Of a DNA stretch of 61,217 bases, positions 41,301-59,857 are shown one piece after another. The stretch is from Verrucomicrobiota bacterium. GTDB lineage: Bacteria > Verrucomicrobiota > Verrucomicrobiia > Limisphaerales > UBA11358. Under the pieces are notes generated by a model that saw only the letters and a program-made list of their open reading frames with translations, was not told where the DNA came from and ran no database searches. How positions within the stretch are numbered: position 1 is the first letter of the stretch; every line of letters begins with the position of its first letter. Both the position numbers and the translations under genes were made by a program. The stretch is from the NCBI GenBank assembly GCA_028872915.1, contig JAGWNY010000017.1:1-61217 (forward strand), written 5' to 3'.

Positions 41301-42851
41301 ATAAGTCGCCGTCACGTCAATCTCGCCGCCATTGAGCGTATTGATATAGCCCGTCCCGGAATTGGCCGAACCGGTGGTGGCCGCCGTTCCCGACCAGCCG
41401 ACTTGGACCTCGTTGGCCGCCGTCAGGCTGATCTTGCCATCTTGAGCTTGAAGATAGGCGTTGCCATCCAGGTATATTCCATAGCTGCCGGAGGCTGGCT
41501 TCGGTTGCCCGGCGACAAAACTGGTTCCCGCATTCAGGCTCACGTTCCAATTCTTTCCGGCACGAATGCCTGAACCGGACTCAAAAATGATGTTTTTGCC
41601 GGCGGATAGGGTCAAACTGGCGGGTTTGGTCAGGGCGAATTCATCGGGCAAACTCCAGATTGTATTCAAAGCAATGTTGTCGTCCGCCTGAACATTGATT
41701 ATGGCCATCCCACTATAATTATTCACATTGAGGACCGTATAACCCGACTGCGCACCGGGATCGGTGTTGGCTGAAGCCAGCCAGACGTTCACCGGGTCAA
41801 TCGTAAGGTTTCCGCCGCTGAACCCGTCCGCTGCCTGTCCGCTGACGACCGAATTTATTGCTCCCATCTCCGGCGCGCAAATTTCCACCCGCCCGCCGTC
41901 GCCGCCCCGCGCGCCGCCCGCAACGCTGATCGCCGAGCCGGCCGTATCCGCGAAACTCTCGCCCGCCTTGATGGTCACCGAACCTCCGGCGCTTGGGCTT
42001 GTCGCCATCGAATCACCGTTCGCCGAAATATCTGAACTGGCGCCCAGGCTGACGGATTTGCTAGCTAGCAGTTCAATCGTCCCGTTCACGTCTTTGGCCG
42101 AGTCGGCCTGAATCACTCCGTCCTGATTGACCATTTGCGCCTGCAAAGCAATGCTGCCGCCGTCGGCGGCCAGGCGCCCTTCATTATCCACCGAGCCTTG
42201 CGGCAGCGTGACCTTCGCGCTCAATCCGCGGCCATCCGGCGCCATGGAAACGAGCACCTCCTCACCGGCGTAAAGGCCCACGTTCCCTCCGGGCGCGGAA
42301 ATGGTCCCGTGGTTTTCAATGTCATCGGCAATCACAAACGCCGACCCGCCGCCATCAATGTTGATTGTGCCATAATTAATGATTTTGGCGGTCGGCGGCG
42401 GGGCTGAGAACGCCCACGGCCCGCCGCTGCCCAGGTTGAGGGCCGGCGCGGAAGCCGTGGTCATGACCAACCCGTGCGCGCGGATGGCCGCCTGCCCGCC
42501 CACGTAAAAACCGGCGGAATTTTGCAAAATTACATAGCCATTGGCGTTCAGCGAACCCAGGATTTGCGAGGGGTTCGAGTCGTTGATCTGGTTCCAAATC
42601 ACCGATGCGGCCGTTGGCTGGTTGAACGTGGTCGTTTCGCCCAGATCAATATTGAAACTTTGCCAGTTAATAAAGGCTGTCGGCGATGTTTGATGAATCG
42701 TCAATTGCGATCCCGAAGTGGTGAACGTGGCTGCCCCCTGCGCGACCGTGCCGCCAGCCGGATTGGCGCGCGCCTCCAGGCCAATCCCGCACAAAATCAG
42801 CATTGGCAAAACGGCAGGCGCCAGCCGCCGAATAATTGAAAAAAACTTCAT
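38325..42851 (-). CDS. Large two-partner secretion exoprotein (TpsA, filamentous haemagglutinin-like)
   Basis: A 1508-residue exported protein. ATG 42851 is preceded by AGGA with a six-base gap, a good ribosome site, and begins a signal peptide (MKFFSIIRRLAPAVLPMLIL). The N-terminal TPS domain follows (about 30-280): NPAGGTVAQGAATF, TFNQPTAASVIWNQIND, GSLNANGYVILQN and GFYVGGQAAIRAHGLVM correspond to the conserved N-terminal haemagglutinin signature. The rest is Gly/Asn/Ser-rich parallel beta-helix (many repeats of the form GGNVNITAGG). A C-terminal region rich in Ala/Gln (SSQSAAQQAASQAKQQV) closes it. It is exported across the outer membrane by the adjacent TpsB and probably works as an adhesin. 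Confidence 0.87.
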   Translation of the reverse strand: MKFFSIIRRLAPAVLPMLILCGIGLEARANPAGGTVAQGAATFTTSGSQLTIHQTSPTAFINWQSFNIDLGETTTFNQPTAASVIWNQINDSNPSQILGSLNANGYVILQNSAGFYVGGQAAIRAHGLVMTTASAPALNLGSGGPWAFSAPPPTAKIINYGTINIDGGGSAFVIADDIENHGTISAPGGNVGLYAGEEVLVSMAPDGRGLSAKVTLPQGSVDNEGRLAADGGSIALQAQMVNQDGVIQADSAKDVNGTIELLASKSVSLGASSDISANGDSMATSPSAGGSVTIKAGESFADTAGSAISVAGGARGGDGGRVEICAPEMGAINSVVSGQAADGFSGGNLTIDPVNVWLASANTDPGAQSGYTVLNVNNYSGMAIINVQADDNIALNTIWSLPDEFALTKPASLTLSAGKNIIFESGSGIRAGKNWNVSLNAGTSFVAGQPKPASGSYGIYLDGNAYLQAQDGKISLTAANEVQVGWSGTAATTGSANSGTGYINTLNGGEIDVTATYGDVNTGSGSSGFQYLATAPYFEPSPTVGGISTVAGGNVNITAGGNVVSFPADLKFVDSSGNTTVSPADPGTGAFGSEAGNVTINAGGSVYGNFVLVNGVGTINAVGDIGSPDSPAKNVALSLITGGWTLNAGWNPVTKAVQSGVGSIYLQEVRNPNGLFNSTYTGFIHKQPTAGNHFFDYDPNAYVTLKAGNAVNLVPFDVPRPAPALGKISSTSSPAPIPVILPPILTIVAGPGGVNFSGANAVDQTGNAISQGVFSDNDIALFPSPYGNLSITTMAGGNFTGHGPASTLLMSDSSATQWTDINSFSANDHAAVPADANPPMTANPVTLDISGDMNNVYLQVNKPANITVHGNWENCGFYGENLNAQDATTIHVYGNIAYDSAFTSVTLPDGLPDLLQLSQNLGAGYSLLGPKDADNWYEMLLSAVNYSPGSPISADGFTTYTELKNVLSQHLEFPSLQVSGSQLLYNPATRELTVVGDLNSSYSPATTTTTFATLLESGTLYLPVYKDGVPLLDSSGNFVINQVNWLPADDQSAMASLAAQSQGNQHGLDAFGGLIVGGPGTFNVTAGCSINLGTSRGILSLGEGQISAVNYSFLAPYMSAAKHPGADINVVANSIEMPGSTIASMGGGGVNVTTTGTIQGSPLNGRGIGVSMDLGNSDPNFVTLANLLADNDTVALGIFTSAGGNVNITASGPDSGSINVDASRIGTFDGGDILVRSDQGDVNAGSISGTGAPIETFPISDPALSQNNYAYEFSFGNGIVAQTLLQLPGQAVPGAAAAPGNITVLTPEGDISADKGGILQLSLGGPIPSGPFILLEAGTPNPPDDWKSQLPPTYIGNISLGNAGAIGATIIARATGKISGRIIAAQNADVTSQTVDKLTVLAGRRADVSAQNGGRDITVIGGQSITAQGLGAALLLGQNVNTGSGAHSTLGTSVSAMASSQSAAQQAASQAKQQVASSGLGNGLENKKKKSSELVRIGRVTVILPKAG

Positions 42852-42928
42852 GAACTTTCCTGGCGGCATCATTTTAGCACCGGCGTCCGTTTCTTCATGT
42901 GACGTTTTGGTGACAAAGACGGTCCCGG

Positions 42929-45349
42929 TTAAAACTGTGCGCTGATGGAAAAATTGAAATAGGGAGCAAACGCGGCGGTGAACGGCGTGCCTTCCAGCGG
43001 CCAGGAAAAGAGAAATTGGCCCTGCCAATGCGGGCCGGCCGAAGCGGTAAATCCAAAGCCCGTGCCCCAAAGTCCGGTGCTCGCCTGCCGCCCCATGGGG
43101 TCCAGCAAATAAACGCGGGCATAATCCACATAAATATCCCCCTGTACCGTCAGCGGCATTCCGGCGCGGATGGCGCCCACAATGTACGGCGGCGTGAATT
43201 GATCGAGTGAAACATGCCAGCCGGTGTCCCCGAAAACCTCGCCTTCATTATAGCCGCGGACGCTGGCGACGCCGCCGGCGCCAAATTGTTCCGGACTGAT
43301 CAATGGCTCGGTCGCCCATTGGCCGTCGGCGCGGAACGTCGTCGTCCAGTTCGGATAAAAGTCAAGGTTCTGCGTGTAACTGGGCCGCAGGGCGACCCAG
43401 TAGCCTGAAGACTTCGTGGAACCGGTGATCTGCTGGATGGACGCCGCGCCGCTCAAGGGGGCATTGGTGCCAATCGAGGTGTGGCTGTTGAACCAAAGGT
43501 CGGCGCTGATTGCCAGGCCGAACGTTGCCGGTCCCATAAAGTTATTCACGCTGCCGTTGTAATTCAAGTTCAACGGCAGGTAATCAATGGTCGGGAGGGT
43601 TGCCGGCGTTGGATCATAAACGCTGCTTGTGACCGGGACGGCCGTACCGGTTCCATTGGTTTCAATTTCCAGAAAAATGAAGGCGTTTGTCTGAAAGTTC
43701 GCCAAAGAATAGACTTTGAAATCCAGCCCGCCGGAAATCGTGGAATTCAAACCGTCAATCGGTGGCAACGGTTTGCTCAACTGAAATCCCAAATCATCAT
43801 TGATGCTCGTGTCGTGTTGGAGGGTCTGTTGGGAAACGTTGCCGCCGTTCGAAAAAGTCACCAAGGCCTGGCTCAACAGGGTTTGCGGGCCGGTGTCAAT
43901 GGCGGCCCGGCTGCCATACACCGTCAACTCCGGCTGGCCCGTGGGCGGAGGCAGGCGGAATCTGCCGGTGGCTTCGCTGTAGCCGAAACTGCGCGGTTTG
44001 CCTTCCACAATCGTCCCAATGGATTCCGGCGTCCCCAGTGGCAGCCGGTAAAAGGCGCTGTAATTGGCGACCGCCGGCTCGTCGTAAAGATCCCATTGGC
44101 CTTCCGGCTTGTAAAGCTCCGGCGAGAAGCTGTATTGCACGCCCAGCGAATTCTCGAGTTGCCACAGATTGTCGTATTCCGCCGAGGCGTTCAGGCGCAT
44201 TGCCGGCGTTCCCGGCGAGGCCTGGTTGTTCAGTTCCAGTTTTCCGTGCAGCGGCAATTGATCCTTGACAGTCAGGGACAGTTCGCCCGTCCCGGGCAGG
44301 GGGCCTGGACCGAGCAGCGGATAAATCTGGCGGTCCCGGTTGGCGTTCGCCAGGTTCAATTCCTCGTTGAAGACGGGGCCGTTGAGCACGATGCCCGGGC
44401 GCAGGTCGGGAAGCGCGCGCATCACGTTGTTCGAGCTGAAATAGCGGTTCCCAATCACTTTGATGTCCGCCAGCCGCCCTTCGAGCACGTCCAGCTTCAC
44501 CGTTGCGTTCGTGAGTTTCTGCTGCGGCACGTCCACGTTCACCGTCACGTAACCGCGATCATGGTAGGCCTTGCCCAATTGGCTGACGATTGTCGAGACA
44601 CCCTCAAAGCTGACGTTCGTGCCAAAGGCATCCACGTTTGTCAGCGCCCCGGCAATTTCCGCCGGAGTCAGGACGGTGTTGCCGCTCACCACGTAATGCT
44701 GCACGTCAAATCGCGGCCCGGCATTGGTGGAGACCACGTGGATGCGCCTGTCCTTTTCCATGGCCGCCAGTTCAACCATCTTTCGGCGCAACGCGCGGGT
44801 CGCCAATTCCATTTCCCGCGGCGTGTCCGGCATTGTCCGGGGTTGAAAAGCGGCAATTGCATTGGTCCTGGCCGCCGCGATGCCATGGGCTGTCGCCTTG
44901 CCTGATGGAATGGCCATCGTTGCCATGCCGTTGCTGAAACTCAAATAGCGTTGGCCCGATACGACAATCTGCGGCAATGGCGCCTGAAATACGCTCAATA
45001 TGACCACGCCGTTGCTGATTTCGTCCGGCGCAACCGCCACGCTCACGTCCGGGTAGCCGTGCTTTCGATACGCCGCCTGCACGTCCGTTGCCGCCTGCAC
45101 AATTTCCGCCGCGCTAATATCAGGCCCGATGTGCTTCGAGAGGACCGGTTTGAACGCGCTGGAGGGCAGAATCGGGTTGCCCTCCACCACATAAGCCTGA
45201 ACATTGAAATGCCGCTCGGAATCCGCGGTCGCTCCGGCTGCGCTCCTTGCCGGCGTAATGGCCGCCAGCCAACAACAAATGGCCGGCAAAATCCGGCGAA
45301 GCGCGCGTGCGCCAATCCGGAAGGCGGGAAAAGGATGCCGTTCGGTCAT
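42929..45349 (-). CDS. Two-partner secretion transporter (TpsB, ShlB/FhaC-like)
   Basis: Outer-membrane beta-barrel of the Omp85 superfamily, 806 residues. Signal peptide (about 1-37), then POTRA-type domains: one beginning FNVQAYVVEGNPILP (about 48) and another at FDVQHYVVSGNTVLTPAEI (about 212), each with the beta-alpha-alpha-beta-beta layout, followed by a third unit at ADIKVIGNRYFSSNNV. The barrel has the VRGYNEGE motif of loop L6 and ends in a terminal Phe (FNFSISAQF). It is longer than usual for TpsB (about 550-600) because of an extra N-terminal POTRA. Its stop is 78 bases before the TpsA start, so both are one operon. Confidence 0.92.
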   Translation of the reverse strand: MTERHPFPAFRIGARALRRILPAICCWLAAITPARSAAGATADSERHFNVQAYVVEGNPILPSSAFKPVLSKHIGPDISAAEIVQAATDVQAAYRKHGYPDVSVAVAPDEISNGVVILSVFQAPLPQIVVSGQRYLSFSNGMATMAIPSGKATAHGIAAARTNAIAAFQPRTMPDTPREMELATRALRRKMVELAAMEKDRRIHVVSTNAGPRFDVQHYVVSGNTVLTPAEIAGALTNVDAFGTNVSFEGVSTIVSQLGKAYHDRGYVTVNVDVPQQKLTNATVKLDVLEGRLADIKVIGNRYFSSNNVMRALPDLRPGIVLNGPVFNEELNLANANRDRQIYPLLGPGPLPGTGELSLTVKDQLPLHGKLELNNQASPGTPAMRLNASAEYDNLWQLENSLGVQYSFSPELYKPEGQWDLYDEPAVANYSAFYRLPLGTPESIGTIVEGKPRSFGYSEATGRFRLPPPTGQPELTVYGSRAAIDTGPQTLLSQALVTFSNGGNVSQQTLQHDTSINDDLGFQLSKPLPPIDGLNSTISGGLDFKVYSLANFQTNAFIFLEIETNGTGTAVPVTSSVYDPTPATLPTIDYLPLNLNYNGSVNNFMGPATFGLAISADLWFNSHTSIGTNAPLSGAASIQQITGSTKSSGYWVALRPSYTQNLDFYPNWTTTFRADGQWATEPLISPEQFGAGGVASVRGYNEGEVFGDTGWHVSLDQFTPPYIVGAIRAGMPLTVQGDIYVDYARVYLLDPMGRQASTGLWGTGFGFTASAGPHWQGQFLFSWPLEGTPFTAAFAPYFNFSISAQF

Positions 45350-49720: not shown

Positions 49721-50002
49721 CCGTTTTTTTACCGAAACTAGCCGCAAAGGGAGGCGATGAACATAAAATTTTTGGGCCAATGAACGTTGCCGCTTGCTTT
49801 TATATGTCATTCAACCCCAGGAAAATCAGCCGGTTTCACAAGCCTTTTGCGAATTTTTTTCTTGCTTTCTCATCCCAACTGTCGGAGATTCCATCAAGTT
49901 TCTCACGTTGTGATACCTCGCATGACAGCGGCGGGGACGGCAGCAGGCTTGGCGCCCGTTCCAGTCGGGTGGTATGGGCAGGTCCGACTTGCCCCGCTGC
50001 CA

Positions 50003-50680
50003 ATGATTTCTTCGATGCCGGTCATCCAAACCAAGATCCAACCTTCACGCCGCATCCGCGTCGCCCTCGTGGATGATGACGCGAGCATCCATGCCGCTGT
50101 GCGTCTGATTTTCGAAAAACAGGCCGCCAATTGGACATTGGAGGATTATCTTGACGGTCGGGCGGCCGTTCGCGGCATTCCGCAGACGCGGCCGGACGCC
50201 GTCTTGATGGACATTTCCATGCCGGAAGTCACGGGCATAGAATGCACCCGCCAGATCAAGGCATTGCTGCCACGGTTGCCCATCATCATGTTTACCGGAC
50301 GTTCGGACAACGAAAGTTTTGTGGCGTCCATGATTGCCGGCGCCACGGGTTATTTGATCAAGCCGGCCGCGTCGTTTGACATCGTTTCTGCCGTTTCCAG
50401 AACGTTGGATGGACTGCCCGCCCTTTCAGTGGAAACGCAGACGGGCATTCTGGAGTGGCTGCGTGGCCTGGGAGAAAACATGGCCTCCTGGGACCTGACT
50501 CCGCGAGAGCAGCAAATCATGCTGCACGTCTGCGCCAATCGCGACGAAGATGAAATCGCCCGCCTTTTGGGCATCAGCCCTGGAACCGTGCATGGACACA
50601 TGATGAAGGCGTTCCAAAAGCTGGGCGTCCATTCGCGGGAGGAAGCCCTCCGAAAATTCGTCGGCTTGGCCGGCGACTGA
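50003..50680 (+). CDS. LuxR/NarL-type response regulator
   Basis: A 225-residue two-domain regulator. Receiver domain (about 16-140): VALVDDDASIHAA acidic pair, VLMDISMPEVTG with the phospho-Asp, Thr in IIMFTGRSD and Lys in YLIKPAA. Output domain (about 160-225): LTPREQQIMLHVCANR and IARLLGISPGTVHGHMMKAFQKLGV, a GerE-type helix-turn-helix. No sensor kinase is adjacent. ATG 50003 or 50015 are both possible; the longer open frame upstream is not domain-like. It is convergent with the cytochrome genes. Confidence 0.88.
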   Translation: MISSMPVIQTKIQPSRRIRVALVDDDASIHAAVRLIFEKQAANWTLEDYLDGRAAVRGIPQTRPDAVLMDISMPEVTGIECTRQIKALLPRLPIIMFTGRSDNESFVASMIAGATGYLIKPAASFDIVSAVSRTLDGLPALSVETQTGILEWLRGLGENMASWDLTPREQQIMLHVCANRDEDEIARLLGISPGTVHGHMMKAFQKLGVHSREEALRKFVGLAGD

Positions 50681-50709: not shown

Positions 50710-51630
50710 TCAAAAGCCCAAGTCCTGTTCCTTCGGCTTGAGACTGAAGAGATAATCCACCAGATCGTTCAGGTCGCTGTCACGGATGATGCCGCCCCAC
50801 GCAGGCATGAACCGCGGCGGCGCCGGACCGTTTGGATTCAACCGCGGCACATCCCGCTCGCCCTTCATGATAAACGCCTTCAGCTCCGCCTTGGTGTAGC
50901 CATCGGCCACGTGGATCAGCGACGGTACCTGTTCCGCCGTTTTCGCGTTGGGATTGGCCACGCCGCCCTGGCCGTCGGAACCGTGGCATTGAGCGCAATT
51001 ATATTGCACAAAAACGTACCGGCCGCGCTCAATGGTCGTCATTTTTGCCCAGCCAGCCGGCACGGGTGCATTGCCGCCGATCCGCGCGCGAGCCTGGCTC
51101 ACCTCTGCCGCGGAAATCGCACTGCTCCGGTTCCCCCAGGAACTCCGAATGTAGGTCAGCACCGCCGCCAGCCTGGCGTCGGAAAGCGCGGCGCCCATCG
51201 GCGGCATGGAAAGGTTCCATTGAACACCCTTGACCTCCACCGGCCCGCTTAAACCCGCCAACGGAATATGCGCCAGCACGCCGGCGTCCTTGGCCACCCA
51301 ATCAGACCCCGCCAATGGCGGCGTCTGATTGGGTCTGCCCAGCCCATCATTCCCGTGGCAGACGCCGCAGACGTTTTGGTAAACGTTCCGGCCTTCCGCC
51401 AGCAGCATGGCCTGGCCGCTTCGCGGCTGGTAGAGTGCCAATTCACCTGTATTTTGGTAGGGCGCATAGACCTGCGCGTTGAACCAACCTCCGTGCCGGT
51501 CAAAATAAACCGCTCCCAGGTAGAACAGCGCCAGCAGCAGGACCACGGGCCACACCGGCGTCAGAGGACGCGGCGCCACCACTACGGCGTCGCGCCCTCT
51601 TGAAGCAGCCGGTTTCAATTCGCCATTCAT
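50710..51630 (-). CDS. Membrane-anchored dihaem cytochrome c
   Basis: A 306-residue electron-transfer protein with an N-terminal membrane helix (PVWPVVLLLALFYLGAVYF) and two cytochrome c domains, each with one haem site: CGVCHG near residue 88 and CAQCHG near residue 215. Methionine ligands are likely in LSMPPMG and RFMPAWGG. It is anchored on the periplasmic side and could hand electrons between the inner-membrane chain and the soluble monohaem proteins of the same cluster. Last gene of the cluster; 21 bases after the preceding cytochrome gene. Confidence 0.9.
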   Translation of the reverse strand: MNGELKPAASRGRDAVVVAPRPLTPVWPVVLLLALFYLGAVYFDRHGGWFNAQVYAPYQNTGELALYQPRSGQAMLLAEGRNVYQNVCGVCHGNDGLGRPNQTPPLAGSDWVAKDAGVLAHIPLAGLSGPVEVKGVQWNLSMPPMGAALSDARLAAVLTYIRSSWGNRSSAISAAEVSQARARIGGNAPVPAGWAKMTTIERGRYVFVQYNCAQCHGSDGQGGVANPNAKTAEQVPSLIHVADGYTKAELKAFIMKGERDVPRLNPNGPAPPRFMPAWGGIIRDSDLNDLVDYLFSLKPKEQDLGF

Positions 51631-51651
51631 TGCCGCGGGCGCCGCTCGGCG

Positions 51652-52143
51652 TCAATTTCCGCTGGACGCAAAATTTGCCGGCGTCGGAGCGCCGTATTTG
51701 CCGCGGATGGCGTCAATCTTGGCGATTTCGGCCGACTTTTGTTTCGGGTCCAGCGTGGCCAGCTTCTGGTCGAGCAACGCTTTCTTGCGGACGCTCGAAT
51801 CATAGACCAGGAATTCGTAGATGTCCTTCGCCTCCGAACCGCTGATATTCGAGCCGGGTTTATACATCATCCGTTTGACATACCGGGCCCACTCGTCCGG
51901 GAGCACAAAATCCGAGTTGATCGGACGGCTCAACTTGTGGCATTGCGAACATTTCTCGCTGAACACCTGGTAGGCGTCCTGGATGTGCTGTGGATATTGC
52001 GACACGTCCACCGTCGAGGGACCGCTGTCGAACTGCGCGATGCGTGCCTTGGTGGCCGCGTCGAGATCGCCGGCGCGCGCCACGCCCGCCATGAACAGGA
52101 CGAGCGCGGCGGCGCCGGGGAGGAACAGACATTTTTTATTCAT
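51652..52143 (-). CDS. Secreted monohaem cytochrome c
   Basis: A 163-residue protein with a signal peptide (MNKKCLFLPGAAALVLFMAGVARA) and one haem site CSQCHKLS near residue 65. EWARYVKRMMYKPGSNIS and AKDIYEFLVY resemble the RM-x-NISxxEAxxIxxYL pattern of small c-type cytochromes and give a methionine ligand. A soluble periplasmic carrier is likely. The gene follows the porin gene by 30 bases. Confidence 0.88.
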   Translation of the reverse strand: MNKKCLFLPGAAALVLFMAGVARAGDLDAATKARIAQFDSGPSTVDVSQYPQHIQDAYQVFSEKCSQCHKLSRPINSDFVLPDEWARYVKRMMYKPGSNISGSEAKDIYEFLVYDSSVRKKALLDQKLATLDPKQKSAEIAKIDAIRGKYGAPTPANFASSGN

Positions 52144-52173
52144 AACTTTAATTGGGTTGGTTCGTTTGTTGGT

Positions 52174-53442
52174 TTAGAATCCATATTGGATTTGCAGTAA
52201 AAAGTCGTTGGGTGCCAGCGCCGCCGGCCCGTGGCTTGAGCAGTATTCGTAATCACCCTCGAACAACAACGTGTCCGTGAAGTAATACACGAAGCCCGCC
52301 GTGTAACGGTCGGTTTTGGTGCCCTGCCCGTCGTTGAGCCGGTCATAACGGCTCACCAATTCCACGTCGTTGACGACTGGCAGTTCCAGGTTCAGACCGG
52401 CCAGCTTGTAGGCGGCTTCCACCCACCAGCCATGTTGATGCACCATGCCCGCATCATCCGAGCCGAACCACGTATTCGCATATTCGCCTTTAACCTCGAT
52501 ATTCGGACCAAAATGCGCCGCAGCGTCCAGTACCGCCGCCGACCACAGGTGATTGCCAATGATCCCCCATTGGCCGGATTGGCCCGACAATCCCAACTCG
52601 ATGTCGTGATGGAGCTCCCATGGATAGAACCATCCGATGCGACCGCCGCCACTGGGATCGGTATGTTGATTTGCCTGGCCCACATTCGCGCCGGTATCAA
52701 GGTCGCCGACGTTATCCACCGGATCGGTTTTGTTCGAACCCGGCCCGTTCACCCCGAATACCGAATATGTGACCATCGCGCCGTTGTCATTGATGGGGAG
52801 GGAGCCGCGCAACTGCGCGCCGATCTCCGCGCCTGGCAGAATCTGATCATCAATCAAGGGCGCGTTGATCAGCTTGGTCAGCCAGCCGGCGCTGCGCATG
52901 TTGTAAGTTCCCAAGGGAACCAGCATGTCGCCGGCCACAAACGTCATGTAGTCGTTCAAAACATAATCCAACTGCCCGAAGCTCATGCTGAAGGTCGTCG
53001 AATCGTTGCTGTTGAGCGACGTGTCAAAGCCGGCTTCAAACAGTATATTGTCATTGGCCCGATACAGAAAAATCGGCGCAAAATCAGCCAGGGCGAATCC
53101 ACTGTGCTGGCCGGCGTATTTGCCGAATTGGACTTCGGCGTCACCCACAAGCATGAAATTGTGCGTGGCGCTGCGGCCGGAAGCGGCCGACGATGCCGCC
53201 GTTTGCGCCTCTTGCGCCTTTTGCGCCGCGCTCGCGGCGATGTGGCGTGTTTGACCCAGTTGCCGCTGGAGTTCCTGGATCGTCTGCTGGTCCTGCGTTT
53301 CCTGCTGTTGCAATTGCTGAATCGCATTGGTCAGGGAGCTGAAGTCCGCGTCGCTGATTTCGGCCGATGCGGTCGAAGGGAGTGCCATGCCCACGGCGCA
53401 TCCAGCCGCTGCTGCTCCGAGAAAAATCGTTTTCTTTTTCAT
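52174..53442 (-). CDS. Outer-membrane porin with N-terminal coiled coil
   Basis: A 422-residue protein. A signal peptide (MKKKTIFLGAAAAGCAVGMAL) leads to a Gln-rich coiled coil (FSSLTNAIQQLQQQ... about 35-75) which may anchor to peptidoglycan or trimerise the barrel. The rest is alternating beta strands with aromatic girdles, ending in QIQYGF with C-terminal Phe, as in phosphate-selective or general porins. Located between genes for three cytochromes c, it may form a porin-cytochrome conduit or admit the substrate oxidised or reduced by them. No haem motif of its own. Confidence 0.85.
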   Translation of the reverse strand: MKKKTIFLGAAAAGCAVGMALPSTASAEISDADFSSLTNAIQQLQQQETQDQQTIQELQRQLGQTRHIAASAAQKAQEAQTAASSAASGRSATHNFMLVGDAEVQFGKYAGQHSGFALADFAPIFLYRANDNILFEAGFDTSLNSNDSTTFSMSFGQLDYVLNDYMTFVAGDMLVPLGTYNMRSAGWLTKLINAPLIDDQILPGAEIGAQLRGSLPINDNGAMVTYSVFGVNGPGSNKTDPVDNVGDLDTGANVGQANQHTDPSGGGRIGWFYPWELHHDIELGLSGQSGQWGIIGNHLWSAAVLDAAAHFGPNIEVKGEYANTWFGSDDAGMVHQHGWWVEAAYKLAGLNLELPVVNDVELVSRYDRLNDGQGTKTDRYTAGFVYYFTDTLLFEGDYEYCSSHGPAALAPNDFLLQIQYGF

Positions 53443-53479
53443 TGTCGTTTCTTTTTGGTTTTTTTTGGGGGTTCCTCTG

Positions 53480-53857
53480 TTATTTGCCGCTGTCTTCCTG
53501 GAGATATTTCAGAATCTTTTTGGCCTGGGGCGGCGGAAGGTTCGCCCGCACCTGCATGTGCAGCATGATGGTTTGCCATTGGCCGGCCGTGAATTCGGTG
53601 GGATACCGCTCCGGATGGCAGCGGTTGCAGTGGATTTGATACAGTTCGGCCCCCGTCAGCGGCGGCGGGTCCGACTTCTTGACGCCGCTTTTTTTGCACG
53701 CGCCCTGCCCGGAGGCGGCCGTTTTGCATTGATCCTGTTTGACGGGTGCCTTGGCGGCCGTCGGCTGGGCCTGGGCCAATGTCAGCCCCAACCCAAGCGC
53801 GCACGCGCACGCCGCCACCGGCGCCGCCCATCCACTGTTCCTCGTTTTCATTGTCAT
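53480..53857 (-). CDS. Small secreted monohaem cytochrome c
   Basis: A 125-residue protein with a signal peptide (MTMKTRNSGWAAPVAACACAL), a Lys/Cys-containing linker with non-haem cysteines (QDQCKTAAS and GACKKSG) and a C-terminal haem site CNRCHPERYP followed by WQTIMLHMQVRANLP, where the Met is the probable sixth ligand. The start could be at 53869, 53857 or 53851; 53857 has GAG at a workable distance. It is the first gene of the cluster and about 195 bases from the predicted sigma-54 start site. Confidence 0.85.
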   Translation of the reverse strand: MTMKTRNSGWAAPVAACACALGLGLTLAQAQPTAAKAPVKQDQCKTAASGQGACKKSGVKKSDPPPLTGAELYQIHCNRCHPERYPTEFTAGQWQTIMLHMQVRANLPPPQAKKILKYLQEDSGK

Positions 53858-54063
53858 TGTATTTCTCATACTGCTGGTTTGGTTGTTGTCTCTCACTGCA
53901 AGCCAAGAATCGCCCAGGCGACGTTTTCCGGCTTCACATGTATTGCTCTTTGCGCAACAAATGTTGTTTCATTATTATTGCTAACCCAATGTCCATATTG
54001 GATAAGCGTTGTCCGACTCTGATTTGGTTCGGCGCTTCTGATTCGTGTCATGCCCTTGTTTAC

Positions 54064-54079
54064 GCAGACGCGGTGCCAA
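54064..54079 (-). promoter_or_regulatory. Sigma-54 (-24/-12) promoter of the porin-cytochrome cluster
   Basis: Minus strand reads TTGGCACCGCGTCTGC. GG and GC are separated by exactly ten bases and TTGGCAC matches the -24 element completely; the -12 element CTGC differs at one position from TTGC. It points towards the cytochrome genes. The next genes upstream encode a sigma-54-activator with GAFTGA, which supports the reading. Confidence 0.68.
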
Positions 54080-54221
54080 TGTTTCGAATCGTATCGTCGA
54101 AAGAAAATCGCGTGGATGCCCAATCGCGGTAAGAGCCTTATATTCAATCACCTGCGATGTCAAAAATAGCCCAATCTTTTCCCCGACGCCCATGCTGCGT
54201 GGTTTTATGCAATCACTTTTT

Positions 54222-54237
54222 GTCACGTCGCTGTGAC
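54222..54237. promoter_or_regulatory. Enhancer-type dyad 1 (GTCAC-N6-GTGAC)
   Basis: GTCACgtcgctGTGAC, perfect arms, centre about 150 bp upstream of the -24 element. Candidate binding site for the NtrC-type regulator encoded next door. Confidence 0.6.
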
Positions 54238-54331
54238 GGCGGAAGCGGATGGGGAATCGGAAATCGGAAGCAAGAGGCGGAAAAACCCGCGGACCCACAA
54301 ATAACTGGCATCGCCACGCGTTGCGGCGCCA

Positions 54332-54347
54332 GTCACATTTTTGTGAC
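54332..54347. promoter_or_regulatory. Enhancer-type dyad 2 (GTCAC-N6-GTGAC)
   Basis: GTCACatttttGTGAC, perfect arms identical to dyad 1 and with the same six-base spacer. Confidence 0.6.
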
Positions 54348-54363
54348 AGTGTGAGCCTTTGGA

Positions 54364-54379
54364 TTCACGCGCGCGTGAC
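54364..54379. promoter_or_regulatory. Enhancer-type dyad 3 (TTCAC-N6-GTGAC)
   Basis: TTCACgcgcgcGTGAC, one mismatch to the other dyads, same spacer. Centre 32 bp (about three helical turns) from dyad 2, so both face the same side of the DNA. Confidence 0.55.
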
Positions 54380-54396
54380 AGTATTTTTCAACCGTT

Positions 54397-55794
54397 TCAC
54401 GCCGCAGGGTCGGCGCGGCGGTAATCGGCTGGATTCAGCCCGTATTTCTTGAAGAGGCGGTACAGGGTGCCGCGGGGCAGTTGCGCTTCGGCTGCCGCCG
54501 CGGAAACATCGCCGCGGCAGCTTTCGAGCAATCCGCCAAGATACTCCTTTTCAAAGGACGCCAGGCGGCGGTGACGCTGTTGAAAGAAGCCCCCGGATTG
54601 GCCGGCGGAATCGCCGGCGCGGGCGACGATCTCATCGGGCAAATCTTCAGGCGAAATGACCGGTTCGCGGGCCAGCGCCAGGACGCGCTTCAACGTATTT
54701 TGCAACTCGCGCACGTTTCCGGGCCAGGCGTAGCCGGACAACACTTCCATCGCCTCGGGGCTGAGTCGCGCCGGACGGCCCAGTTCGCGCGCGTAAAGAT
54801 CCACGAAGAAATTGGCGAGGATGGGAATGTCGCCGGCGCGCGAGCGCAACGGCGGCAGTTCGAGGCGGACCACGTTGATGCGGTGATACAGGTCCTGCCG
54901 GAATCGGTCCTTGCGCACTTCCTCTTCCAAGTCCATGGACGATGCGGCGATCACGCGGACATTGAGATCAATTTCCTTGTTGCCGCCCACCCGCCGGATT
55001 TTGCGCTCCTGGAGCACGCGCAGCAGCTTGGCCTGAAGGCGCAGCGGAAGCTGGCTGAGCTCGTCCAGAAAAAACGTGCCGTGATTGGCGTACTCAAGAA
55101 GGCCGAGACTGCGCCCGGACGCCCCCGTAAACGCGCCGCGTTCATGGCCGAAAAATTCGCTTTCCATCAATTGATCGGGAATGGCGCCGCAATCCACCGG
55201 CACAAACGGCCCGGCCTGGCGCGGGCTTTGCCGGTGAATGGCGCGCGCGGCGAGTTCCTTGCCCGTGCCGGTTTCGCCCAGAATCAAAACGTCAAAATCG
55301 GTTTGGGCGACCCGAACCAGGTTGTCCAGGACACGGTTCATGGCCGTGCTCTGGCCCAGGATTTCTGCTCCCGCGTAGGAACGCTCAACCTGGCGTCGAA
55401 GGAGGCGGTTTTCGTCGCGCAGCCGGCGGGCTTCCAGAAGCGAGCGGACATTGGCCAGCAGGTCTTCCGGGAGGAAGGGTTTGACAATATAATCGGCGGC
55501 GCCAAGTTTCATGCTGTCCACCGCGGTTTCGACGGTGGGAAAGGCCGTGAGCATGAGCGCGGCGAGGTCGGGATCGTGCTGCCGGGCGGCCCGAAGCAAT
55601 TCGATGCCGTTGAGTTCAGGCATGCAGATGTCGGCGATGAGCAGGTCAAAGCTTTCCTCCTTCAATCGCTGGGCGGCGCTTGGGCTGCGCCCCTCAACGA
55701 CGATCTCCGTGTCGGGTAGTCTTTGGAGCGTGTCGGCGCACACTTCCAACATTCCCGGCTCGTCGTCCACAATCAATATGCGGGTCTTAACCAT
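54397..55794 (-). CDS. NtrC-family sigma-54-dependent response regulator
   Basis: A 465-residue activator. Receiver domain with phospho-Asp55 in LLIADICMPE; AAA+ domain with Walker A GETGTGKE (173-180), the sigma-54-contacting GAFTGA (220-225), Walker B GTFFLDELSQLP and an arginine-finger region; C-terminal Fis-type helix-turn-helix (GDVSAAAAEAQLPRGTLYRLFKKYGL). All three functions needed for enhancer-dependent activation are intact. ATG 55794 overlaps the 3' end of the kinase gene by eight bases, so they are cotranslated. Predicted target: the cytochrome cluster directly downstream, through the dyads between. Confidence 0.94.
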   Translation of the reverse strand: MVKTRILIVDDEPGMLEVCADTLQRLPDTEIVVEGRSPSAAQRLKEESFDLLIADICMPELNGIELLRAARQHDPDLAALMLTAFPTVETAVDSMKLGAADYIVKPFLPEDLLANVRSLLEARRLRDENRLLRRQVERSYAGAEILGQSTAMNRVLDNLVRVAQTDFDVLILGETGTGKELAARAIHRQSPRQAGPFVPVDCGAIPDQLMESEFFGHERGAFTGASGRSLGLLEYANHGTFFLDELSQLPLRLQAKLLRVLQERKIRRVGGNKEIDLNVRVIAASSMDLEEEVRKDRFRQDLYHRINVVRLELPPLRSRAGDIPILANFFVDLYARELGRPARLSPEAMEVLSGYAWPGNVRELQNTLKRVLALAREPVISPEDLPDEIVARAGDSAGQSGGFFQQRHRRLASFEKEYLGGLLESCRGDVSAAAAEAQLPRGTLYRLFKKYGLNPADYRRADPAA

Positions 55795-57841
55795 CTGTGT
55801 TCTTCGGTCGCCCCGCCTCATCCGCCGGAAATTGGACGATGAAGCGCGACCCTTTCCCCGGTTCGCTTTCCACCCGTATTTCCCCCCCGTGGCCGCGCAC
55901 CACGCCCAGGCAGATGGAAAGTCCCAGGCCGGTGCCGCGGCCCTCCTGTTTTGTCGTAAAAAACGGTTCGAAAATCCTGTCGCGGACAGACGGCGGGATC
56001 CCGACCCCGCTATCCTCCACCGTCACCGCCACCGCGCGCGGGCGACCAGCCGTCCCCTCCAAAACCACCGCCGACACCCTCAGTCGGCCGCCGCCGGACA
56101 TGGCGTCCAGGGCGTTGAGAAACAGGTTCAGAAAAACCTGTTCCAATTCGTTGGAGTTCGCGCTCACTGGCGGCAGCGCGGCCGGCAGTTCATCAAGCAC
56201 GGCAACACCCGCGTTGCGCGCGTTTTGTTCCACCATGGCAAGGGATTTGCGGATCGGTTGGCGCACGTCCAGGGGTGCGCGCGTGCCCGGCGAGGGACGG
56301 CAATAGGAAAGCAACCCCTGCGCAATCCGGGCGACGCGGTCCGAGTAATCGGTGATCTTGGCCAATTCTTGCGCGATTTTCGGCGACATTTCCGACCGGT
56401 GATCGGCCAGCAGCAGCCGGCTTTTCGTGCTAATGATGGCGATGGGGTTATTCACCTCGTGTGCGACGCGCCCGGCCAGTTCGCCCACGGCGGCGAGTTG
56501 GCCGGCGCGCGCCATTTGTTCCTGCGCCCGTTTTTGCCGCGTCACGTCCTGCGCCAGTTCGACAATCCGTTGAACGCGCCCTTGCGCGTTCGCCAATGGC
56601 GCCGTCGTTACCTGCAATATCCTTCCCGGGCATTGCTCCGGCGCCGCTCCGGGCGGGCAGCCGCCCCCCGGTTCCATCACCACTTCCGTCACTCGAATTT
56701 TTCCGTCTTCCAGCGTTTGCCGGGCCGGCGAGCCGGAGCCGTTCAATAATTCGAAGCTGGCGCAATCAGGACCGGTTGGACAGGCGCACCATTGCCGCCA
56801 CCGCGCGTTGTCCCAATAACCTCTAAGCTCGCCGTCCAGCACCCGCAACCCGGCCCCCGTGGTTTCAAGCGATTGTTCAAGCAACTGCTGCCCGGCGGTC
56901 GCCCGTTCGGCCAGCGTTTCGAGCCGCCGCTCATTTTGCCGCAGACGTTCCGCCAATGTCGTCACAAAATAAGCCGTCAGAAACATGACCACCCCCTGCA
57001 GAACGCTCCGGCTCATCACATACAGCGATTGTTCCGCCGGGTGAAACAGCTCGCCGTTGGCCTGGCGGACGTGGGGATATAGCTGCAGCGTATAATGAGT
57101 CAGCAAATCCGACCATTCCCCCCACGCAAGCGCGGCGAATAGAAAACTGGCAAACGCCGCAATCCAATAACACTCCCGCCGCGAGAGCAAAATACCCCCA
57201 ATGATCACGTGAAAAATCATCATCATTGAAAGAGGGTTTTCAATTCCGCCGGAAAACTGAAGCAGCACTGTCAGGATCACCAAATCCACGTACACCTGCG
57301 CGGACAACAGCCGCGGCCCGACGCCATGCCGCCGTGCGAGGATCGTGTAAAAAACGTTCAAAACCGCTAAAACGGCCACGGTGGCCATCAACGGCCGCCA
57401 GACCGTCCCCGGGAGCCAGGCGAACACCTGGACACTGATAAATACAAGCACCGCCGCCAGCAGAACCGCGATCCAACGCATGGCAATGAACCATTGCGCA
57501 TACATCTTCGACCGCTCCAGCGGCGTCACGCCCGGCCGGCACAGATCCGCGTCGTCCATCGCAGGCTGCGTCAGAAACGCCGGCGACGACCGGATAATCA
57601 TCCAACTGACCGTTCCCGCCACGACAATCGAGCTTAAAATACCCTCGATTTGAAAAAGCAGGTGCAAGACCGGCATCGGCACGTTGCCGAGCCACAGTCG
57701 TTGGATGATGTCGCCGCACCCAAAAATAAAGAGCGTCATTCCCAGCGCCAGCAACAGGGGCCGAATCAGGCGACGCCAGGGCGGCGGGCCGGTCTTTCCC
57801 TGTTGTGACCCGCCATCGTTATGGGGTTGGGCATCCGTCAT
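55787..57841 (-). CDS. Membrane histidine kinase with Cys-containing PAS domain
   Basis: A 684-residue sensor. It has about seven membrane helices (about 26-295), a linker coiled coil, a PAS-like domain (about 320-430) containing five cysteines (352, 354, 360, 395, 404; WCACPTGPDC and CPPG...QCPG), and a HisKA/HATPase core: phospho-His461 in GRVAHEVNNPI, N-box NLFLNALDAM, G1 EDSGVGIP, F-box FEPFFTTK, G2 GTGLGLSI. The cysteines could hold a metal, haem or redox disulfide, which would fit regulation of cytochrome genes; that is inference. ATG 57841 was chosen as the polar N-terminus before the first helix. Confidence 0.92.
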   Translation of the reverse strand: MTDAQPHNDGGSQQGKTGPPPWRRLIRPLLLALGMTLFIFGCGDIIQRLWLGNVPMPVLHLLFQIEGILSSIVVAGTVSWMIIRSSPAFLTQPAMDDADLCRPGVTPLERSKMYAQWFIAMRWIAVLLAAVLVFISVQVFAWLPGTVWRPLMATVAVLAVLNVFYTILARRHGVGPRLLSAQVYVDLVILTVLLQFSGGIENPLSMMMIFHVIIGGILLSRRECYWIAAFASFLFAALAWGEWSDLLTHYTLQLYPHVRQANGELFHPAEQSLYVMSRSVLQGVVMFLTAYFVTTLAERLRQNERRLETLAERATAGQQLLEQSLETTGAGLRVLDGELRGYWDNARWRQWCACPTGPDCASFELLNGSGSPARQTLEDGKIRVTEVVMEPGGGCPPGAAPEQCPGRILQVTTAPLANAQGRVQRIVELAQDVTRQKRAQEQMARAGQLAAVGELAGRVAHEVNNPIAIISTKSRLLLADHRSEMSPKIAQELAKITDYSDRVARIAQGLLSYCRPSPGTRAPLDVRQPIRKSLAMVEQNARNAGVAVLDELPAALPPVSANSNELEQVFLNLFLNALDAMSGGGRLRVSAVVLEGTAGRPRAVAVTVEDSGVGIPPSVRDRIFEPFFTTKQEGRGTGLGLSICLGVVRGHGGEIRVESEPGKGSRFIVQFPADEAGRPKNTDG

Positions 57842-58280
57842 CGTAGCGTGGTTTGGCCGCAGATTACCCCGGCCGCAAAGATTCAAAAGCAAAAACTCGC
57901 CCTTGCGGCGATGGCCGCCGCGGCTGATTCATCTGGTTTTGGGAAGCGGAATGAACGCTGAAGTTGGCGCTGAAAAGTGAAGAACCATCTTTCGTGAATG
58001 AACCACTCGCTGCGCGGATCACACAGCCGATTGACCACCAGCAGTTCCACTGGCTCTCCACGAACCCAAAAACCCAATGAATCACGCCGACCGAACCGCA
58101 AAAAAATCAAAAACAATCGAAATCTGCGAAAGTCAGGCTAGGCTCCTCTGATTTCTGCAACTCGTTTTCAGTTGGAGGCGGGGGAATCCTTTTGGCGTCC
58201 GTTGCTTCAATACGATGTTCTACAAAAGGGTTCGCAGTGCCACAGCTGTTCAATATAGCGTCAGATAAAAAAGACGGCTA
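57842..58280. other. Intergenic region between the kinase and hipB
   Basis: 439 bases without a convincing gene. Overlapping short frames on the minus strand (57864-58116) have no recognisable similarity. It should contain the promoter of the kinase-regulator operon, not identified. Confidence 0.45.
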
Positions 58281-58311
58281 TTGACTTAACGTTTGAAATA
58301 CCTGACATTAT
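58281..58311 (+). promoter_or_regulatory. Promoter of hipBA
   Basis: TTGACT (58281-58286) and CATTAT (58306-58311) with a 19-base spacer, longer than ideal. If real, transcription would start almost at the ATG at 58317, giving a leaderless message. Confidence 0.35.
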
Positions 58312-58322
58312 CGCCAATGTCA
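58303..58322. promoter_or_regulatory. HipB operator candidate
   Basis: TGACATTatcgccAATGTCA: perfect 7-bp arms around a six-base spacer, overlapping the -10 and the first codon of hipB. Typical location for autorepression by a HipB-type antitoxin. Confidence 0.6.
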
Positions 58323-58631
58323 AAATCAAGTTCCATGCCGTTGCCTGCCGCCCATGCGCTCCGCAAATTGGGCCGTGACCTTGCGCTCGCGCGGCGCAAG
58401 CGCGGCATCTCCACCAGCGACATGGCTACTCGCCTTTTTGTCAGTCGTGACACGCTTTGGCGGCTGGAGCGTGGCGATCCAACGGTTGCCCTTGGCACGC
58501 TCGTAACCGCAACCTTTGTTCTGGGATTACACGACCGCCTGGCGAATCTCGCCTCCCCCGCCAGCGATGAACTCGCGCTTGGTCTGGATGAACGCCGCCT
58601 GCCGCAACGTATCCGTCGCTCACGCTCATGA
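58317..58631 (+). CDS. hipB: HipB-like antitoxin, XRE family
   Basis: A 104-residue DNA-binding protein with a helix-turn-helix of Cro/C1 type: LGRDLALARRKRGISTSDMATRLFVSRDTLWRLERGDP (about 17-55). It is followed directly by hipA with ATGA overlap, the standard layout of this toxin-antitoxin type. ATG 58317 or 58335 are possible starts; a TTG at 58293 is less likely. Confidence 0.85.
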   Translation: MSKSSSMPLPAAHALRKLGRDLALARRKRGISTSDMATRLFVSRDTLWRLERGDPTVALGTLVTATFVLGLHDRLANLASPASDELALGLDERRLPQRIRRSRS

Positions 58632-59857
58632 GTATTGAAGTCCATATTGATTGGCGGGGGCAAACCCATCTTGTGGGGCGGCTCCATCCAGCGGAGCGTG
58701 GCTCGTTCGTTTCGTTTGAGTATGCGCCCGAATGGCTTCAGCGCGAGGATGCCTTTGCCATTGACCCGACGTCGTTGCCACTGCAACGCGGTGCTCATCA
58801 TGGCAAAGCACTCTTTGGGGCGATTCAAGATTGCGGGCCGGATCGCTGGGGACGAATGCTCATCGAGCGTGCTGTGCGCAAGAAAGTCCTGGCGCAAAAA
58901 CCCTACCGTGACGTTGATTATGTCTTGGCGCTGGATGACGTGGCGCGCGTCGGCGCCCTCCGTTTTCGCCTCAACGCCGAAAGTCCTTTTCTTGCCGCCG
59001 CTACAGGCAAGTTGCCGCCTTTGGTGCGTTTGAACGCGCTGCTTCGCGCCACGGACGCCATTCACAGCGAAACAGAAACCGCCCAGGATTTGCGTTTTCT
59101 CCTTGGCGCCGGTTCGCCGCTGGGCGGCGCCCGCCCGAAGGCGGCGGTCGGTTTGGCGGATGAACGGCTCGCCATTGCAAAATTTCCCAAACCTGATGAT
59201 ACGCGGGATATTGCGGCGGGTGAAATGCTTGCGCTGGCGCTGGCGGCACAGGCGGGTATTCAGGTTGCCGAACATCGTCTCGTGCCGGCAGGTGGGAACA
59301 GCGTGGCGGTCATCACACGATTTGACCGGGTGGGCGCAAATCGCATTCCTTTTATCTCCGCGGTGACCTTGCTGGGCTTGCCTCAAGGTGAACCGGGCGC
59401 TTACACCTTGTTGGCCGACGGCATCCGTCAATTCGGCAATGATGTCCCTGGAGACCTGCGCGAATTGTGGCGACGCCTTGTTTTCTCGCTGCTCGCCAGC
59501 AACTACGACGACCACCTCCGTAATCACGGTTTTTTGATGCACGAACCCGACCGGTGGTCGCTCTCGCCGGCCTACGACATCAATCCCGTGCCAGAAGTAG
59601 ATCGCGTCCGCATGAACCAGACCGCCATCACTGAAGATCATGACGAGCCAAGCGTTGCCAATGCGCTGGCCGCCGCGCCGCGCTTTGGCCTCAAAGCAGC
59701 CGAGTCAAAGAAAATTCTCCGCGAAGTTTTTGCGGCGGTTTCCGGCTGGCGAAAAATCGGACTACGACTCCGCCTCAAGGCATCCGTCTTGGACACTTAT
59801 GCCAGCGCTTTTGAGCATCCACTCATGGATGAAGCCAGGCGTCTCATACGCAAATAG
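58628..59857 (+). CDS. hipA: HipA-like serine/threonine kinase toxin
   Basis: A 409-residue kinase of the HipA family; E. coli HipA phosphorylates glutamyl-tRNA synthetase and causes dormancy. Seen here: the N-terminal subdomain (VGRLHPAERGSFVSFEYAPEWL), the Gly-rich GAGSPLGGARPKA loop with ATP-binding residues, LAIAKFPKP with the ATP lysine, the catalytic loop NYDDHLRNHGF and metal motif SPAYDINP. All key residues are present, so it should be active. Overlap with hipB is four bases. Confidence 0.9.
   Translation: MSIEVHIDWRGQTHLVGRLHPAERGSFVSFEYAPEWLQREDAFAIDPTSLPLQRGAHHGKALFGAIQDCGPDRWGRMLIERAVRKKVLAQKPYRDVDYVLALDDVARVGALRFRLNAESPFLAAATGKLPPLVRLNALLRATDAIHSETETAQDLRFLLGAGSPLGGARPKAAVGLADERLAIAKFPKPDDTRDIAAGEMLALALAAQAGIQVAEHRLVPAGGNSVAVITRFDRVGANRIPFISAVTLLGLPQGEPGAYTLLADGIRQFGNDVPGDLRELWRRLVFSLLASNYDDHLRNHGFLMHEPDRWSLSPAYDINPVPEVDRVRMNQTAITEDHDEPSVANALAAAPRFGLKAAESKKILREVFAAVSGWRKIGLRLRLKASVLDTYASAFEHPLMDEARRLIRK

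Follow-up and report, generated by a model that had tools for sequence, protein, structure and literature searches.

The contig JAGWNY010000017.1 of a Verrucomicrobiota bacterium (metagenome-assembled genome GCA_028872915.1; Limisphaerales, UBA11358), analysed here over a stretch of 61,217 nucleotides (nt; the window), carries genes for a membrane histidine kinase and an NtrC-type sigma-54 activator beside genes for a porin and three c-type cytochromes. The locus raises the question of whether the kinase and activator are a dedicated switch for the genes that adjoin them, and, if so, what they sense and what kind of electron-transfer apparatus they control. Judged from sequence, the pair is probably such a switch, acting on the cytA-porin-cytB-diheme genes by the mechanism proposed below. 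Comparison with relatives shows that the activator and a fixed layout of predicted dyads and promoter co-occur across the phylum beside different electron-transfer genes.

The six genes are co-directional on the minus strand, in the order kinase, activator, cytA, porin, cytB and diheme cytochrome. The features of the locus are:

55787..57841, minus strand: membrane histidine kinase, with an alternative TTG start at 57892
54397..55821, minus strand: NtrC-type sigma-54 activator, assigned from Pfam domains and alignment with relatives
54364..54379, no strand assigned: dyad I, imperfect, reading GTCACGCGCGCGTGAA on the minus strand, with one mismatch, 17 nt past the activator stop
54332..54347, no strand assigned: dyad II, perfect GTCAC-N6-GTGAC, 32 base pairs (bp) from dyad I
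54222..54237, no strand assigned: dyad III, perfect GTCAC-N6-GTGAC, 110 bp from dyad II and 159 bp before the -24/-12 site
54063..54078, minus strand: -24/-12 (sigma-54) promoter-like site, TGGCACCGCGTCTGCG, score 9/11
53480..53896, minus strand: cytA, a small secreted monoheme cytochrome (CNRCH), TorC-C-terminal/DHC-like
52174..53442, minus strand: porin, with a coiled coil and a 16-strand OprP/OprO-like barrel
51652..52143, minus strand: cytB, a secreted monoheme cytochrome (CSQCH), assigned from its open reading frame and motif
50710..51630, minus strand: membrane-anchored diheme cytochrome c (CGVCH, CAQCH; Cytochrom_C 1.7e-25)

Open reading frames confirm the genes and the CNRCH, CSQCH and CGVCH/CAQCH heme motifs at the places where a first-pass annotation of this DNA had put them. 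That annotation also described an intact activator and a membrane kinase. The activator matches receiver, AAA+ and HTH_8 domains, all above cut-off (Response_reg 5e-24, Sigma54_activat 6.8e-68, HTH_8 2.3e-5), and GAFTGA can be read in its sequence; its start is more likely the ATG at 55794, giving an 8-nt overlap with the kinase stop. The membrane part of the kinase is matched by 6TM_PilS (48.3 bits, cut-off 27) and its catalytic part by HATPase_c. Absence of rpoN had been named beforehand as refuting the proposal, and rpoN is encoded by the host genome (Sigma54_DBD 201 bits at G000:C9). Gaps of 37, 30 and 21 bp separate the cytA, porin, cytB and diheme cytochrome genes, making it likely that this four-gene set is a single predicted transcript.

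Between the activator and cytA, the first-pass annotation had seen three GTCAC-N6-GTGAC dyads and a -24/-12 promoter aimed at the cytochromes. Two of the dyads (54222, 54332) are perfect as claimed and the third (54364) departs from the consensus at one position; L067, L104 and L154 have a comparable imperfect dyad that ends TGAATC (relatives are cited here by locus, L, and genome, G). The promoter-like site is indeed present at 54078-54063 on the minus strand, with GG-N10-GC intact, and would place the transcription start near 54052. At a tolerance of two mismatches the window shows no enrichment of either motif, with 14 dyads where 16.8 would be expected and 33 promoter-like sites where the expectation is 40.5; the promoter is thus no proof by itself. 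Perfect dyads number just two in the 3.19 Mb available of this genome (93% complete), both in the activator-cytA gap. Since the number per genome ranges from 0 to 8 among 97 related genomes, the window's own included, two in this gap are very unlikely to have arisen by chance. No further target of the regulator was found in this genome by perfect dyad, imperfect dyads not having been searched genome-wide.

The porin is present in 42 of the same 97 genomes, and a strong kinase match in just four, with a fifth that is weak. Among 320 genomes of the order, 30 have some kinase match and eight a strong one, and a phylum-wide sample of 387 genomes added three kinase loci from other classes (G437, G334 and G378, the last with its kinase cut by the contig end). 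These three were chosen by the kinase alone and their dyads examined afterwards; past the activator stop, all three carry a perfect dyad together with one or more dyads that have a single mismatch. A set of ten regulator loci, comprising the window, L033 and L067 (found via the porin) and seven found via the kinase, contains 13 perfect dyads in 139.5 kb, or 17 dyads with one mismatch allowed, compared with no perfect and five one-mismatch dyads in 570.7 kb from 41 porin loci that lack the regulator. Some of these 41 loci are on short contigs, where absence of the regulator is taken from the whole-genome kinase search. Within one genome, G040, one porin locus has the pair and dyads (L033) and another has neither (L059); in G094 kinase and porin are on separate contigs. 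The window and its relatives together contain 14 activator copies in 13 loci, of which 13 copies are testable after exclusion of the second L101 copy at a contig end: ten have perfect dyads nearby, one has altered dyads (L103) and two have none. The half-sites of 16 perfect operator dyads read GTCACR in 30 of 32 cases, compared with 9 of 20 for ten other perfect dyads in the same genomes. Homologous clusters without dyads or promoter had been proposed as refuting evidence, and such clusters do exist among porin loci without the regulator. We take this not to refute regulation in the window; rather, it indicates that the regulator and its putative sites occur as a set, which the porin genes frequently lack.

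A separate observation concerns dyad-like repeats. Many of the 25 perfect dyads of G164 look like one dispersed repeat, and G164 (for example contigs C266, C341 and C671) has several copies, on separate contigs, of a dyad-like sequence, GTCACTGAATGGTGAC, which also occurs in G085 and the inner bases of which differ from those of the operator dyads.

The arrangement of the sites is also conserved. A distance of 30-32 bp separates dyads I and II in the window, L033, L067, L103, L104, L106, L107, L153 and L155, some of the dyads compared having one or two mismatches, and dyad III follows dyad II by 89-121 bp in the window, L033, L067, L103, L104, L106 and L153 and by 255 bp in L107. No dyad was recognised between the first and the last in L154, and no third dyad was found in L155; for these two loci and L105, distances were measured from the last dyad found. 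Of the ten copies whose dyads follow the activator, eight have a -24/-12 site scoring at least 8/11 at 159-175 bp beyond the last dyad (159, 160, 161, 161, 166, 169, 169 and 175 bp), the nearer site being used where there are two candidates (window, L106, L153). Sites of this score occur in comparison DNA at 0.64 per kb and strand, so that about 0.01 would be expected per locus in a 17-bp stretch, which was chosen post hoc. The dyad-promoter spacers of the eight copies have a median identity of 0.51, against 0.49 when shuffled; being nearly as unlike as shuffles, they indicate that the layout has been kept while the remaining sequence drifted. In 37 loci that lack the pair, the best promoter-like scores ahead of cytA resemble background, with a score of 9 in 2/37 and 10 in none. 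The comparison thus gives strong support to the regulatory half of the earlier description, a sigma-54 two-component system that is self-contained, having dyads of its own and a predicted promoter directed at the cytochromes, and shows the arrangement to be family-wide.

The genes found beside the regulator and dyads differ from locus to locus. Porin-cytochrome sets occur in the window, L033, L067, L103 and L155. Elsewhere the neighbours include a 9-heme cytochrome (L104), MtrC/F-like cytochromes (L107, PF22113 1e-24; L153, PF22113 8.7e-12, where an 18-heme protein is encoded two genes further along), a diheme cytochrome (L105) and the large subunit of a NiFe hydrogenase (L106, 415 bits; some 1.3 kb beyond the final dyad). 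L154 has a 415-residue protein without a known domain and two YceI proteins. Also seen beside the same dyads is an 857-residue protein (L107:3960-6533, G184) with an unusual mix of cyclic nucleotide monophosphate (cNMP)-binding and sigma-54 interaction domains and a weak 4Fe-4S match, below cut-off.

Comparison of the activators suggests how the dyads might be recognised. In the ten activators beside perfect dyads the recognition helix reads LPRGT, or IPRGT in one, and the preceding residue is Q in eight, R in L105 and K in L107. In L103 (G190; gene order activator, porin, cytA, kinase), where only the C-terminal part of the activator is on the contig, the helix reads ARLTRGSLYR, differing from the ten by P to T and T to S, and all three dyads are altered (GTCGC-N6-GCGAA, GTCGC-N6-GCGAC and GTCGC-N6-GCGAC). 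Operator and helix change together here, matching what would be expected from direct binding by the activator. The same genome, G190, also carries the kinase-activator pair in two tandem copies, the first with broken frames (L101:7727-12945).

The kinase has two N-terminal and six PilS-type helices, followed by a PAS-like domain, DHp and an ATPase domain. Its AlphaFold model (predicted local distance difference test score, pLDDT, 77.8; predicted template modelling score, pTM, 0.51) has helices at residues 21-49, 56-85, 107-139, 145-170, 176-196, 203-218, 221-243 and 272-328. Between the third and fourth PilS-type helices is the sequence GGIENPL, residues 198-204, where the family consensus is mostly F-S-G-G-[IV]-E-N-P-L; G198, G199, N202 and L204 are invariant in 32 of 32 aligned relatives, and E201 and P203 are kept in at least 90%. 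In a part of PMC10525716, the GGXXNPF sequence of RegB is reported as a coenzyme Q binding heptapeptide. GGIENPL keeps four of its five fixed positions, the F being replaced by L in all 32 relatives; in tblastn alignments many more distant kinases have GGPHNPF at this position and others lack NP. By this analogy, our reasoned guess is that the kinase may sense quinone through GG[IV]ENPL. Cysteine-based redox sensing in the PAS-like region was considered and rejected, the cysteines around residues 352-405 not being conserved in the 32-row alignment. Kinase relatives also come from Planctomycetota and Gemmatimonadetes, as known from record names alone.

The output genes centre on the porin, whose model comprises a helix at residues 31-85, which supports the coiled coil noted earlier, and a 16-strand barrel. 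The barrel's fold match to OprP/OprO is strong; the sequence scores 17.8 bits against Pfam Porin_O_P (cut-off 20.9), and a profile search against solved structures returned four matches, each of them weak and confined to the coiled-coil region. The best-scoring porin outside the window (P0002, Verrucomicrobiota bacterium) is 66% identical. No CxxCH occurs in the porin sequence, heme proteins and barrel being encoded by separate genes. CytA, the start of which is uncertain (GTG 53896, or ATG 53869 or 53857), matches DHC at 0.0013, below cut-off, and the C-terminal part of TorC at 4.4e-7, far below cut-off; it adjoins the porin in 42 of 43 loci, the exception being cut by a contig end. A cytB relative (at least 55% identity) follows the porin in 15 of the 43. 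The C-terminal third of the diheme cytochrome matches the C-terminal part of 6-heme cytochromes that lie downstream in the porin operons of L038, L040 and L065. In L155 the run of genes goes on to encode a flavin (FAD)/iron-sulfur (FeS) oxidoreductase, a Rieske protein, cytochrome b and a multiheme cytochrome, and L038, L040 and L065 resemble it by gene size and order. A search of the window's genome with the L155 cytochrome b, made without a positive control, gave no match.

The first-pass annotation likened these genes to porin-cytochrome conduits. Its porin and cytochrome genes are there; the conduit reading is weaker than the regulatory one. With a 16-strand OprP/OprO-like barrel, where MtrAB would have at least 20 strands, and with neighbours of one, one and two hemes, an MtrAB-type wire is unlikely, and we ruled out this candidate. 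The models more weakly suggest that the output module is nearer to a split Cyc2 than to an MtrAB conduit. Relatives of cytA, the porin (41%) and cytB also occur in the same order in an Omnitrophota locus (L032:9618-11710), the module thus reaching another phylum.

Taken together, these features suggest the following mechanism. The phosphorylated activator would bind the dyads as an enhancer and contact sigma-54 polymerase at 54078-54063, so that the four genes would be transcribed together. Less certainly, GG[IV]ENPL in the membrane part of the kinase may serve to gauge the redox state of the quinones, as GGXXNPF is reported to do in RegB, so that electron-export genes would be switched on once electrons pile up. 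The products probably carry electrons between the inner membrane and a cytochrome positioned on the periplasmic side of the porin. The inner-membrane end is represented by the diheme cytochrome and in some relatives by a Rieske/cytochrome b complex; at the OprP-like porin a soluble donor or acceptor would meet the porin-side cytochrome, and flow could be in either direction. More tentatively, and as a generalisation to which we give somewhat less than even weight, the quinone-reading kinase, sigma-54 activator, three-dyad enhancer and promoter may form a portable cassette placed before unrelated electron-export modules across Verrucomicrobiota (split Cyc2-like cytochrome and porin, MtrC-like surface cytochromes, hydrogenase), with co-change of operator and helix in one lineage; such a cassette would let these bacteria open an electron outlet at the outer membrane when the quinone pool is over-reduced.

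Several observations weigh against a dedicated switch of this design. L105 has a single dyad, and its promoter-like site, like that of L106, lies further from the last dyad (245 and 230 bp respectively); the dyads of L107 precede the MtrC-like gene instead of following the activator, and the promoter-like site 171 bp away scores just 7; the third dyad of L153 and the last of L155 have one mismatch. Two of the eight regulator-bearing genomes have many perfect dyads elsewhere (G164, 25 in all; G190, 9). The intact pair of L102 (G190) has the usual recognition helix (AQLPRGT), yet no dyad with up to two mismatches is present in the 800 bp after the activator, and none follows the activator of the first, frame-broken L101 copy. 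The covariation of operator and helix is a single case, L103, with a partial activator, and the kinase of G073 reads GGVENAL. On a tree of porins from 45 loci, where the long branches L032 and L155 may be misplaced, the label "with the pair" requires four changes, forced by well-supported branches, against an average of 4.9 for shuffled labels; 65 of 500 shuffles are as low, so that clustering is not significant and neither a single origin nor repeated recruitment is demonstrated. Could the dyads, then, serve some other regulator, for example a CRP/FNR-like one, with the kinase-activator pair merely a neighbour? Adjacency by itself is no proof of binding, the dyad is of what we take to be a CRP-like size, the cNMP-binding/sigma-54 domain protein of G184 is encoded beside the same dyads, and L102 has the pair without them. 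Perfect dyads nevertheless track the activator across families and classes while the neighbours differ, are absent from the 41 activator-less loci, and are altered jointly with the recognition helix in L103. We consider this alternative very improbable and retain the kinase-activator pair as the probable regulator acting through the dyads.

The input and output of that pair are less firmly placed. The kinase, being PilS-like, could respond to a different cue from quinone, for instance the state of the membrane or signals of the pilus type, an explanation that we do not favour and yet regard as a substantial possibility: Pfam assigns the membrane part to 6TM_PilS, and the motif ends in L rather than F. 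On the other side, many more distant kinases have GGPHNPF in alignment with GG-x-x-N-P, and most identified neighbouring genes are redox genes. Slightly more doubtful is that the porin is an ordinary nutrient porin for phosphate or another anion, the cytochromes belonging to a periplasmic respiratory chain, with no electrons reaching or crossing the outer membrane. Speaking against this are the retention of cytA beside the porin, the oxidoreductase, Rieske and cytochrome genes into which the L155 run continues, the similar gene size and order of L038, L040 and L065, and Cyc2, an iron oxidase predicted to combine the same type of barrel with one heme, as described in part of PMC8406198.

Some elements of this system are familiar. 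Sigma-54 activators beside their targets, and an influence of RpoN on electron-transfer cytochromes, are already known in Geobacter. In Geobacter sulfurreducens, as here, NtrC-type activator genes lie beside RpoN-dependent targets, and PilS resembles the present kinase in its membrane part; Juarez (2009) reportedly linked PilR to Fe(III) reduction genes. The RpoN regulon of that organism includes cytochromes of Fe(III) reduction, according to a portion of PMC2725144. The present system differs in belonging to another phylum, in its neighbours, which are cytochromes, porins or hydrogenase and not pilA, in its conserved GTCAC-N6-GTGAC layout and in the GG-x-x-N-P-L of its kinase. RegB/RegA (PrrB/PrrA, ActS/ActR) likewise has a membrane kinase with GG-x-x-N-P. 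The partner of RegB is a RegA-type regulator and not a sigma-54 AAA+ activator; here the partner is a sigma-54 AAA+ activator, and the last residue of the motif is L, not F.

Closer to the output genes, clusters of porin and multiheme cytochrome genes in Verrucomicrobia have been proposed to serve extracellular electron transfer (mSphere 2017; a part of PMC5615132). They share the phylum and the placement of a porin gene beside c-type cytochrome genes; those porins are predicted to contain 20 or more transmembrane motifs and are paired with 8-heme partners, compared with 16 strands and one-heme partners here, and one section of that paper describes no regulator for them. Cyc2, in the part of PMC8406198 that describes it, likewise has a predicted 16-strand OprO/OprP-like barrel with a small one-heme domain at the periplasmic side. 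In Cyc2 this N-terminal monoheme domain is fused to the barrel, whereas here heme protein and barrel are encoded separately, the porin has an N-terminal coiled coil, and the cytochrome is TorC-C-terminal/DHC-like. Verrucomicrobiota come up twice in a 2025 survey of sigma-54 regulons, the main text of which does not use the word "cytochrome" (PMC12316311). Among the matches listed in our literature searches, mostly non-subscription papers, no title or opening of an abstract described the kinase-activator pair or the dyads.

Other genes near the locus in the window are a HipBA-like pair at 58293-59857, divergent from the sensor kinase gene and encoding a helix-turn-helix protein (112 residues) and a HipA-like kinase (409 residues; HipA_C 158.7 bits), and a LuxR-type response regulator at 49787-50680, which converges on the diheme cytochrome gene across a gap of about 30 bp. 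At 38325-45349 there is, judged by eye, a probable two-partner secretion pair comprising a haemagglutinin-like exoprotein of 1581 residues and a ShlB-like transporter of 806 residues.

These findings bear on how uncultured Verrucomicrobiota decide on the use of cytochrome-based electron outlets. The conserved operator with its fixed spacing provides a handle for finding electron-transfer genes in genome searches, and one that extends to genes without a recognisable domain, such as L154:6523-7770. L103 offers a natural pair for working out the specificity of activator-DNA recognition, and the short motif GG-x-x-N-P-L is a testable candidate for the sensor.

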